64,000 nt of DNA from contig NZ_JAETXX010000011.1 in the NCBI RefSeq assembly GCF_021764745.1, positions 62,001 through 126,000 of the forward strand, in the 5' to 3' direction. Below are positions 37,777 through 38,914 of the stretch, piece by piece. The notes beneath the pieces were generated by a model, which saw only the letters and a list, made by a program, of their open reading frames with translations, did not search any database and was not told the DNA's origin. Every line of letters begins with the position of its first letter. Position 1 is the first letter of the stretch. This DNA is from Joostella atrarenae (lineage in GTDB: Bacteria > Bacteroidota > Bacteroidia > Flavobacteriales > Flavobacteriaceae). Made by a program: the position numbers and the translations under genes.

Positions 37777-37782
37777 TTAAAG

Positions 37783-37856
37783 TGACCGCGAAGGGATTCA
37801 AACCCCCAACCCTCAGAGCCGAAATCTGATGCGCTATTCAGTTGCGCCACGCGGCC
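37783..37856 (-). tRNA. tRNA-Arg (anticodon UCG)
   Basis: On the minus strand the acceptor stem GGCCGCG pairs with CGCGGTC (one G-U). The D stem is GCGC/GCGC, the anticodon arm TCAGA-TTTCGGC-TCTGA gives anticodon TCG, and the T arm is GGGGG-TTTGAAT-CCCTT. CCA is not encoded. The D loop reads AACTGAATA, with A where G19 is usual. The 5' 22 bases also serve as the last codons of the endonuclease gene that precedes it. Confidence 0.93.
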
Positions 37857-38094
37857 TTATCTTTGTTTTTAAAAATTCTCTTCCAGACCCAGATTTAAAA
37901 TATCGTTCTCTAGTTATAGCCAATTCCCGCGTATTAAACTCCTCATAATAAACCAAAACCCATGGTTTATATCCTTTAGTTGATTTAGTTTTTCCTGAAT
38001 TATGCTCTCTTACTCTCTCTTCAAGTCTGCTCGTATGCCCTTTGTACAACCTACCATCAAACCCACTTCTCAAAACATAAACGTAATAAATCAT
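37834..38094 (-). CDS. GIY-YIG endonuclease, copy 2 (ends inside tRNA-Arg)
   Basis: An 86-residue single-domain nuclease of the UPF0213/URI type: YYVYVL (YVY for GIY, residues 4-6), LYKG (YKG for YIG, 17-19), Arg27, HN at 31-32 and catalytic Glu63 in RERYFK. All key residues are present. The gene starts at an ATG that overlaps the stop of copy 1 (ATGA) and its last codons, RPRGATE and TAG, are read from the acceptor strand and D arm of the intact tRNA-Arg. It differs from copy 1 at only three of 86 residues, so the duplication is recent. Confidence 0.88.
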   Translation of the reverse strand: MIYYVYVLRSGFDGRLYKGHTSRLEERVREHNSGKTKSTKGYKPWVLVYYEEFNTRELAITRERYFKSGSGREFLKTKIRPRGATE

Positions 38095-38390
38095 AATTCA
38101 AATTTTGCGCCCTGCCTGCCGGCAGGCAGGTATTCAGTTGCGCCACGCGGCCTTATTTTTGTTTTTAAAAATTCTCTTCCAGATCCAGATTTAAAATATC
38201 GTTCTCTAGCTATAGCCAATTCCCGCGTACTAAACTCCTCATAATAAACCAAAACCCATGGCTTATATCCTTTAGTAGATTTAGTTTTTCCTGAATTATG
38301 CTCTCTTACTCTCTCTTCAAGTCTGTTCGTATGCCCTTTGTACAACCTACCATCAAACCCACTTCTCAAAACATATACGTAATAAATCAT
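38091..38390 (-). CDS. GIY-YIG endonuclease, copy 1
   Basis: A 99-residue copy of the same nuclease (83 of the 86 shared residues identical to copy 2; same YVY, YKG and Glu63 motifs). Because its tRNA-derived end is interrupted by a palindrome before the TAG stop, translation runs on: RPRGATE is followed by YLPAGRQGAKFEL, and the stop overlaps the next ATG. The core domain is unaffected. It lies 70 bases beyond the yqeY stop and could be read from that promoter. Confidence 0.88.
   Translation of the reverse strand: MIYYVYVLRSGFDGRLYKGHTNRLEERVREHNSGKTKSTKGYKPWVLVYYEEFSTRELAIARERYFKSGSGREFLKTKIRPRGATEYLPAGRQGAKFEL
38106..38152 (-). pseudogene. tRNA-Arg 5' fragment, interrupted by a palindrome
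   Basis: Minus-strand sense: GGCCGCGTGGCGCAACTGAA then TA, then 20 bp CCTGCCTGCCGGCAGGCAGG (38111-38130), then GCGCA. Removing the palindrome restores the acceptor 5' strand and the whole D arm of tRNA-Arg, after which homology ends. Confidence 0.8.
38111..38130. repeat. 20-bp GC-rich palindrome (insert)
   Basis: CCTGCCTGCCGGCAGGCAGG is a perfect palindrome in very AT-rich DNA. A 16-bp version is at 38407-38422. Both sit at the same place, between TA and GCGC of the tRNA D loop. When translated it gives the LPAGRQG-type peptide seen in endonuclease copy 1; I recall such peptides as insertions in other Bacteroidota proteins, which would fit an invasive palindromic repeat. Confidence 0.75.
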
Positions 38391-38401
38391 AATTCAAATT
38401 T

Positions 38402-38444
38402 TGCGCCCTGCCTGCCGGCAGGTATTCAGTTGCGCCACGCGGCC
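38402..38444 (-). pseudogene. Outermost tRNA-Arg 5' fragment, interrupted by a palindrome
   Basis: Same structure as the fragment at 38106-38152, with a 16-bp form of the palindrome (38407-38422) in the D loop, then GCGCA and the leader of endonuclease copy 1. It still carries the original upstream flank and therefore probably marks the first insertion. Confidence 0.8.
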
Positions 38445-38464
38445 TTATAAATTATGGTTTATTC

Positions 38465-38914
38465 CTAGCTTAATCTACTTTTTACTACTGTAGAAATCGT
38501 TTTTCCATCTGCTTTTCCTGCTAATTCTTTTGAAGCCATTCCCATTACTTTCCCCATATCTTTCATTCCTTCAGCTCCTGTTTTAGCAATAACTGCATCA
38601 ACGATTACGGCAACTTCTTCTTCACTTAGTTGTTCTGGTAAGAACTTTTCTAAGATTGCTGCTTCTGCCATTTCAGGTTCCGCTAAATCTGCTCTTCCTT
38701 GCTCTGTATATATAGCAGCGCTATCTTTTCTTTGTTTTACAAGCTTCTGTAATAGTTTTATTTCATCTTCTTCAGACATTCCATCCTTACCACCAGCACT
38801 TGATTGTGCCAATAACAATTCAGATTTTACTGATCGAAGTGCTGTTAAAGCTACTGTATCCTTTGATTTCATAGCAGTTTTCATCTCTGCCATTACCTTG
38901 TCTTGTAAACTCAT
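38465..38914 (-). CDS. GatB/YqeY domain protein
   Basis: A 149-residue YqeY-type protein: a helical bundle with TALRSVKSELLLAQSS, EDEIKLLQKLVKQRKDSAAIY and a GMKDMGKVMGMASKELAGKADG C-terminal block, homologous to the tRNA-binding tail of GatB. YqeY is thought to bind tRNA or assist amidotransferases; its role is unproven. It follows ftsZ after a terminator, and the original tRNA-Arg lay directly downstream before the endonuclease insertions. Confidence 0.9.
   Translation of the reverse strand: MSLQDKVMAEMKTAMKSKDTVALTALRSVKSELLLAQSSAGGKDGMSEEDEIKLLQKLVKQRKDSAAIYTEQGRADLAEPEMAEAAILEKFLPEQLSEEEVAVIVDAVIAKTGAEGMKDMGKVMGMASKELAGKADGKTISTVVKSRLS

Follow-up and report, generated by a model that had tools for sequence, protein, structure and literature searches.

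A compact GIY-YIG endonuclease unit in a tRNA-Arg gene of Joostella atrarenae: a probable homing-type element that restores the gene end it pushes aside

The window analyzed here is a stretch of 64,000 nucleotides from the Flavobacteriaceae bacterium Joostella atrarenae (assembly GCF_021764745.1, contig NZ_JAETXX010000011.1, positions 62,001 to 126,000 of the forward strand), and the locus of interest within it is a tRNA-Arg(TCG) gene that is preceded by two small GIY-YIG endonuclease genes and two broken copies of the tRNA 5' half (Table 1). Read along the tRNA strand, the order is tRNA bases 1-22, a 16 bp palindrome, bases 23-27, an open reading frame (ORF), bases 1-22 again, a 20 bp palindrome, bases 23-27, the second ORF, and finally the whole tRNA (bases 1-75). 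The palindromes have the form CCTGCC..GGCAGG and in each extra copy lie between tRNA bases 22 and 23; in canonical numbering this is A21|G22, the point at which the D-loop meets the 3' strand of the D-stem. The pattern of these palindromes has four strand-matches at two places in the window, versus none in 100 shuffled sequences.

Table 1. Features of the split tRNA-Arg(TCG) locus, in window positions
Feature	Position	Strand	Support or remark
Intact tRNA-Arg(TCG)	37782..37856	-	ARAGORN; Rfam tRNA, 56.3 bits; sole complete tRNA at the locus
Rebuilt tRNA 5' half (bases 1-22 of the intact tRNA-Arg(TCG))	37835-37856	-	
GIY-YIG ORF, tRNA-proximal, 86 aa	37834..38094	-	PF01541, E 2.4e-15
Remnant of tRNA bases 23-27 (GCGCA) beyond the palindrome, proximal unit	38106..38110	-	
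Palindrome CCTGCCTGCCGGCAGGCAGG, 20 bp, at tRNA 22|23 (canonical A21|G22), proximal unit	38111..38130	.	
Middle copy of tRNA bases 1-22, preceded by 4 bp (ATAA)	38131..38156	-	Repeat family
GIY-YIG ORF, tRNA-distal, 99 aa	38091..38390	-	PF01541, E 5.9e-16
Remnant of tRNA bases 23-27, distal unit	38402..38406	-	
Palindrome, 16 bp, distal unit	38407..38422	.	
Displaced tRNA bases 1-22 plus 4 bp, beside the left flank	38423..38448	-	Repeat family; empty-site comparison
yqeY-like gene (putative name), left-flank marker	38465..38914	-	ORF list; empty-site comparison

An earlier note on this DNA, made from its letters alone, had reported three copies of a 26 bp segment from the tRNA 5' end at spacings of 296 and 292 bp, two GIY-YIG genes identical at 83 of 86 residues, and a single complete tRNA copy. 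All three observations are sound: the segment lies at 37835-37860, 38131-38156, and 38423-38448, its repeat family shows the two spacings, both ORFs match PF01541 and differ at 8 of 258 nucleotides (five synonymous and three nonsynonymous codons of 86), and ARAGORN and Rfam agree on one tRNA. The two spacings differ because the palindromes differ in length by 4 bp (20 vs. 16); as 292-nucleotide units the two repeats are 97% alike. The note had also traced the homology of the extra copies to the tRNA as far as GCGCA. Bases 1-22 and 23-27 are both present, but the palindrome inserted between them had been missed.

The two ORFs end differently. The stop codon of the proximal one is a TAG that lies across tRNA bases 21-23, that is, on the insertion junction itself. 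In the distal unit the third base of this stop codon is replaced by the palindrome, and the frame reads on across the middle tRNA piece and the palindrome (..TEYLPAGRQGAKFEL), gaining a palindrome-encoded tail, YLPAGRQGAKFEL, before it terminates at a TGA that shares letters with the start codon (ATG) of the proximal ORF. This overlap is an ATGA at 38091-38094 of the window, and translational coupling of the two copies is possible.

As read from the sequence, then, each unit is made up of a palindrome, a short tRNA remnant, a GIY-YIG gene and a copy of tRNA bases 1-22, and sits exactly between A21 and G22. The copy of bases 1-22 at the far end of the unit, joined to the resident 3' half, keeps one tRNA complete, and the old 5' half is left capped by the palindrome. 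Elsewhere in the genome the only DNA match to the intact tRNA is a tRNA-Arg(ACG) gene, which is 84% identical. The claim that no intron is involved is borne out, in that Rfam at E-values up to 1 over 36.5-39.5 kb returns only the tRNA and three weak, sub-threshold matches; moreover, the intact tRNA gene is contiguous and its two halves need no splicing to join. Visual inspection of the ORFs listed for 35.5-40.5 kb revealed no integrase, although no dedicated integrase search was made, and the split at the D-loop boundary with a rebuilt 5' half is unlike that of integrase-type islands, which rebuild the 3' end of a tRNA at the attachment (att) site. An assembly error seems an unlikely source of the architecture, because dozens of loci in other genomes share it.

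The homologous locus was located in six other genomes of the genus by means of the neighboring yqeY-like gene. In five of the six (L152, L154, L155, L156, and L157) an intact tRNA-Arg(TCG) gene comes immediately after the yqeY-like gene, with no GIY-YIG gene at the site, so the empty sites that the earlier note had proposed to look for do exist. The sixth (L153) contains tRNA bases 1-22, the palindrome, GCGCA, and a decayed GIY-YIG frame with two stop codons, followed by the intact tRNA. The unit has therefore been gained, lost, or both within the genus. Of the homologues found in other genera, the nearest is 74% identical, is present in two copies, and lies at tRNA-Arg(ACG) rather than at tRNA-Arg(TCG).

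Several further features of these genomes may be recorded here. In three of the congeners with an empty site (L154, L155, and L156) tRNA-Arg(TCG) is immediately preceded by a short stem, of the type TTCCTGC..GCAGGAAT, which might be a terminator or the scar of a lost element. The genome under study has a second element at G000:C67:193386-193604 (L005 1350-1830), with a GIY-YIG ORF before tRNA-Leu(CAA); two palindromes interrupt its partial tRNA copy, the first near base 8 and the second where the D-loop ends, and the same arrangement occurs in two congeners (L010 and L013). Two more GIY-YIG ORFs of this genome, at G000:C34:191688-192801 (L006 and L007), have no tRNA near them and lie amid dispersed repeats of the type CTGAGCTTGTCGAAGC. 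Other GIY-YIG ORFs of the genus (L021, L026, L029, L031, and L032) also lie, as judged by eye, within palindrome-rich spacers.

Genes of this kind recur beside tRNA genes. A scan of genome contigs, from which 80 of 105 confirmed loci were kept, gave with the genus and family matches 212 unique ORF stretches; 169 of the ORFs pass a profile score of 60 and a length of 200 nucleotides, and the 118 with a score of 100 or more are called close homologues here. There is a same-strand tRNA gene within 700 bp of 113 of the 118: 78 ORFs lie directly upstream of it, 14 are in arrays that lead to one, 18 lie directly downstream, and three are farther away but within the 700 bp, which leaves five with none. 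For one of the 78 (L087) the adjoining ARAGORN call is false, being itself a split copy, and the true intact tRNA is on the opposite side of the ORF. The false call, a tRNA-Arg at L087 1051-1126, is divided by the palindrome, and such pseudo-tRNAs may inflate annotated tRNA counts.

The sets of close homologues were selected by similarity to the window protein, and a separate sample of the phylum was therefore taken. Among 148 sampled Bacteroidota genomes, 62 match a 38-sequence profile at E 1e-15. The 66 loci analyzed (26 returned, with four from already-used genomes excluded, plus 40 from the strong part of the remaining list) hold 74 ORFs, none of which shares its ORF core with the earlier loci. 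Fifty-one of the 74 adjoin a same-strand tRNA (14 upstream and 37 downstream of it) and none adjoins a tRNA on the opposite strand; of the others, 13 have a tRNA within 900 bp and ten have none. By a hand estimate (40 tRNAs in 3.99 Mb), same-strand adjacency within 170 bp would be expected by chance in about 0.1% of cases. The expectation that GIY-YIG genes would be found at other tRNA genes thus holds both for the close homologues and for the separate sample.

The distribution is patchy: at E 1e-12, 43 of the 199 family genomes have a close homologue. At 20 of the 29 loci classed as having no tRNA, the ORF is flanked by a repeat that scores at least 16, compared with none in shuffled sequences. 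A scan of 21 family genomes for the junction pattern found the window locus and one other place, the latter without a palindrome. Records from candidate phyla (Omnitrophota, Neomarinimicrobiota, WOR-3, Uhrbacteria, Berkelbacteria, and others) are contigs of metagenome-assembled genomes and need confirmation. A tandem array at L202 1000-3900 (G179:C34) has eight GIY-YIG ORFs about 365 bp apart, and each of its units that was viewed has a terminator-like hairpin, a palindrome, and a 3' part of a tRNA.

The junction is also conserved. The ORFs upstream of an intact tRNA (type A) and those in arrays number 106 together, and for 69 of them a tRNA copy split by a hairpin could be located. A count by ORF (62 of 73 at A21|G22) may count a split in an array twice, and so distinct split sequences with a score of 100 or more were counted instead; 54 of 65 are split at A21|G22, and these span tRNA-Arg of five anticodons, tRNA-Met, and tRNA-Ala. 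Four lower-scoring tRNA-Leu(CAA) copies are split one base later, and the other sites are in the T-arm (position 55, at three tRNA-Arg(CCT) loci), at the border of the anticodon stem and loop (position 31), and elsewhere. The 100% identity over bases 23-27 is partly forced by the method that finds the splits, and a separate, less selective test was therefore made, in which a stem of 6 bp or more had to begin within 3 nucleotides of the fragment end. It is positive at 57 of 67 loci with a recognizable fragment, versus 54 of 435 control positions that were not matched for G+C content.

In 46 loci the displaced copy is nearly unchanged over bases 10-27, a figure that is partly forced by the selection of cases. 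At 38 of 49 tRNA loci the displaced bases 1-7 are identical to the new ones, which fits a carried copy and a duplicated target alike. The proposal that a compact unit lies within the tRNA, where the old 5' half is displaced and a new one has taken its place, is upheld; its further point, that the new half is brought along by the element, is not separable by this count from duplication of the target. The ORF stops within the tRNA in 54 of 90 type-A loci (21 by a TAG at bases 8-10 and 21 by a TAG across the junction), and at such loci RNase P processing would part the tRNA from the message.

A mirror-image form is found where the ORF lies downstream of the intact tRNA. At 31 of 37 such loci in the phylum sample part of that tRNA is repeated beyond the ORF; 30 of the 31 repeated parts start at base 23 or later, 18 reach the 3' end of the tRNA, and at 13 a stem of at least 6 bp abuts the repeated part. 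None of the parts lies in a called tRNA, and shuffled sequence gives none. Further cases of this form are L073, L104, and the arrays L198 and L202.

Target choice appears to follow descent. On a quick tree of 160 of these short proteins, 126 of which are labeled with a tRNA, the tRNA isotype changes 21 times over the 126 rows, versus a mean of 46.9 (minimum 43) when labels are shuffled; the anticodon changes 36 times (shuffled, 87.0), the configuration 15 times (24.3), and the presence or absence of a tRNA, over all 160 rows, 13 times (29.0). Target specificity is therefore inherited, with switches among tRNA-Arg isoacceptors.

A sister clade has the same kind of unit in protein genes. Two near-identical elements (308 of 330 nucleotides) in one genome, L014 and L017, occupy two different genes that Pfam assigns to the NAD-dependent epimerase/dehydratases, at the codons for ITGxAGF|IGS (the GxxGxxG motif). 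In both the old 5' end of the gene is displaced upstream, and a new 5' end encoding MKxxxSKKNKRxLITGxAGF is attached to the element. This attached end is shared by the two, whereas the displaced ends differ outside the conserved motif, and the pair is the most direct sign that the unit can move and that the new end travels along with it. A similar sequence is repeated in a third case (L203). The tmRNA may be a further target. At L209 307-702 and L211 208-607, tmRNA genes are followed by one and two GIY-YIG ORFs, respectively, and repeated CGAAGC palindromes lie between the tmRNA and the ORFs.

The proteins encoded by these units are presumed nucleases. Residues Y6, Y17, R27, H31, N32, G34, A59, E63, and K67 are common to 38 aligned proteins, and we take Y6, Y17, R27, and E63 to correspond to the GIY-YIG active-site residues. 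In a profile search the nearest proteins are the UPF0213 structures 1ywl and 1zg2 and SLX1 (E 4e-15, 2e-14, and 6e-6), and the predicted fold (pLDDT 84) is likewise nearest to UPF0213 and SLX1. SLX1 is a nuclease of branched DNA, and the likeness would fit a cut where stem and loop meet in a tRNA gene that is extruded or single-stranded. There is also a weak match to a PHROG family of homing endonucleases (E 0.002). A match to the defense-system family PD-T4-4_B in PADLOC was disregarded, as it reaches E 0.007 for only one of the two proteins.

It seems quite likely from these observations that the unit is a minimal, free-standing element of the homing type that rebuilds the gene end it displaces, although we infer its cleavage and transfer. 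A UPF0213/SLX1-type GIY-YIG enzyme would cut an empty tRNA gene at or near A21|G22, on the boundary of D-loop and D-stem, and repair from an element-bearing copy would install the unit, the two arms (the 5' flank plus bases 1-22, and bases 23-75 plus the 3' flank) matching the two sides of the cut. The copy of bases 1-22 at the end of the unit would restore the tRNA and, in many loci, the stop codon of the ORF, and the half so carried would render the insertion harmless. Arrays could then grow, because the rebuilt gene holds the site again, either by reinsertion there or when the repeats recombine unequally. As for the palindrome, it probably forms the end of the element or a protective or cleavage structure.

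A number of points weigh against this interpretation. Since the rebuilt tRNA retains the presumed target, the donor should be cut as well, unless upstream sequence matters. The scheme has no account of how a carried tRNA half would suit the different acceptor stem of a new tRNA, and cleavage and transfer are deduced from DNA sequence. There is no nearby tRNA for 34 of the 169 ORFs with a profile score of 60 or more, no hairpin split was located for 37 of the 106 type-A or array ORFs, and 23 of 90 type-A loci have no recognizable D-arm fragment. The full and empty alleles were compared between species of one genus, and their pattern could be explained by an old insertion followed by losses. No vehicle has come to light either: there were no matches in 50,697 phage records or in a scan of viral contigs, and plasmids gave one distant match (42%). 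Carriage by phages or plasmids was rejected, as nothing was found beyond this single plasmid match.

Much less probable is a reading in which the GC-rich palindrome is the primary mobile unit and the GIY-YIG protein its mobilizer, as the REP-associated tyrosine transposase (RAYT) is proposed to be for repetitive extragenic palindromes (REPs), so that the tRNA copies merely tolerate or buffer the insertion. Of the 199 family genomes, 36 contain the 20-mer, with a maximum of 19 copies; by a hand tabulation of these 199 genomes it is found together with a GIY-YIG gene (E 1e-12) in 25, alone in 11, and absent from 18 that have such a gene and from 145 that do not (Fisher odds ratio 18, p 3e-12). 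An identical 32-nucleotide palindrome lies at 21|22 of tRNA-Ala (L179) and at 55|56 of tRNA-Arg(CCT) (L053 and L054), and since the position in the tRNA differs between genomes, the palindrome may lead an existence of its own. Copies elsewhere lie within tRNA-like sequence at 7 of 61 flanks, versus 1 of 1,119 controls, when 17 of 20 matches are required; at looser cut-offs the counts are 8 versus 5 (16 matches) and 9 versus 42 (15 matches), and two of the seven (L220 and L240) are themselves GIY-bearing loci. On the other side, most palindrome copies elsewhere are outside tRNA-like sequence, the elements' own palindromes make up part of the co-occurrence, one of the 11 genomes with the palindrome and no close GIY-YIG gene has 19 copies, and the elements in the epimerase genes have no such GC-rich palindrome at their junction. 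A preference for the centers of other palindromes, which three loci (L266, L227, and L268) had suggested to the eye, was rejected (2 of 64 vs. 25 of 1,121). The idea that the palindrome belongs to a high-copy REP family of the host was likewise rejected, the genome having three places at or like the 20-mer, two of them in this locus, and two terminator-like ones. The sole exact copy of the 20-mer elsewhere in the genome, at L148 1500-1600 (G000:C12:416917), lies just before an ORF that to us looks IS110-like.

That nothing here is mobile, and that a tandem duplication of the tRNA with a neighboring GIY-YIG gene was followed by decay of the broken copy, vertical inheritance, and loss, is improbable, and we disfavor it. 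Tandem arrays are what duplication would naturally yield, as are direct repeats; the two units of the window are 97% alike, and a congener has a decayed copy. Against this, one and the same exact junction, palindrome included, is repeated at many loci and in several tRNAs, strand and position are too regular, the gene is wholly absent from the site in five congeners, and near-identical units occupy two different protein genes of one genome. Least probable is a cassette useful to the host, whose nuclease would drive changes in tRNA copy number or guard translation and whose partial tRNA would be a recombination handle or a functional RNA, for although the accessible part of one report has SegB of phage T6 amplifying tRNA-Tyr (PMC13096335), displaced copies stay nearly unchanged over bases 10-27 subject to the selection noted above, and the frequent ORF stops inside the tRNA could couple nuclease expression to tRNA processing, the single intact tRNA in the window gives no rise in dosage, a close homologue at E 1e-12 is missing from 156 of 199 family genomes, and the match to a defense family is unconvincing.

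If the homing-type interpretation is correct, a very small and self-contained mobile element, of about 290 bp and with one gene of about 86 codons, is common in these bacteria and apparently unnamed. It would show how a parasite could live harmlessly inside tRNA genes, even a tRNA gene that has no near-identical second copy. Homing elements that replace gene ends, as in fungal mitochondria, would then extend to the RNA genes of bacteria, with a simple, testable target site. Annotators should also be warned that these ORFs run into tRNAs and palindromes (giving tails such as LPAGRQG) and that a split pseudo-tRNA can be called as a gene, as at L087. A broader proposal is possible, and we offer it tentatively: that these are an unrecognized class of cellular mobile elements in which an SLX1-like mini-nuclease recognizes the folded form of structured-RNA genes (the D-arm or T-arm of tRNAs, perhaps tmRNA) and inserts itself and a GC-rich hairpin at stem/loop boundaries, the gene staying complete through the half of it that is carried along, in Bacteroidota and probably other phyla, the hairpins also moving alone.

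Comparison with known systems bears on how new this is. No bacterial description of such tRNA elements is among the matches listed in searches of open PubMed Central, which is weak evidence of absence, as preprints and most subscription journals are outside its scope. The suggestion in the earlier note of an undescribed class survives to that extent, but the phenomenon, which takes in 3'-part and protein-gene versions, is wider than was claimed, and both fungal mitochondria and phages offer precedents. Within the literature searched the unit looks like a miniature selfish DNA that is apparently new for bacteria, and there is a fair chance that it deserves a class of its own. None of the known systems found, as far as the accessible parts of their descriptions go, is a bacterial element in a hairpin-split tRNA, and the unit is best seen as an extension of the known gene-end-replacing elements.

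The enzyme resembles UPF0213 (1ywl and 1zg2, entries titled hypothetical) and the GIY-YIG domain of SLX1 in sequence and predicted fold. SLX1 itself is larger and is a structure-specific nuclease with SLX4 as its partner, and the phage proteins of the SegB type are also larger than the window protein. REP palindromes are dispersed and are thought to be mobilized by RAYT transposases of the Y1 HUH type; here too dispersed palindromes are statistically linked to one nuclease family, but the enzyme is of the GIY-YIG rather than the Y1 HUH type, and the unit includes the gene and rebuilds its target. The GC clusters and hairpin elements of mitochondria are likewise short GC-rich or hairpin-forming palindromes in genes and spacers that look mobile, whereas the present palindrome is at a fixed site in split tRNAs and the accessible parts of those reports tie no endonuclease gene to the clusters (PMC4478555, PMC2800124).

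SegB of phages T4 and T6 is, according to the accessible parts of two reports, a free-standing GIY-YIG homing endonuclease that is encoded beside tRNA genes and has its target in the tRNA region (PMC13096335, PMC2988022). Escape mutants there have tandem repeats, and the amplification of tRNA-Tyr probably relies on microhomology that the 5' region of the tRNA shares with the 3' region of segB (PMC13096335). The units described here are similar in that a GIY-YIG gene adjoins tRNA genes and the tRNA 5' end is shared with the 3' end of the nuclease gene; they differ in being chromosomal elements and in the hairpin-split tRNA, which those parts of the two reports do not describe for SegB.

The closest parallel is with the mobile ORFs (mORFs) of fungal mitochondria, found in atp6 of Allomyces and in atp6, atp9, cox2, and nad3 of Glomus, which carry a replacement gene end and encode a LAGLIDADG or GIY-YIG enzyme, the new end being expressed with the gene (PMC3630166, as far as accessible). 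In both systems an endonuclease ORF lies in a gene whose old end is displaced, the gene is complete with a new end, and relatives have alleles without the ORF. The bacterial units differ from the mORFs, as that part of the report presents them, in their place in bacterial chromosomes and tRNA genes, in the gene end concerned, which is a 5' half or a 3' part and belongs to an RNA gene, in an enzyme of only about 86 amino acids, and in having a palindrome at the junction of a unit of about 290 bp.

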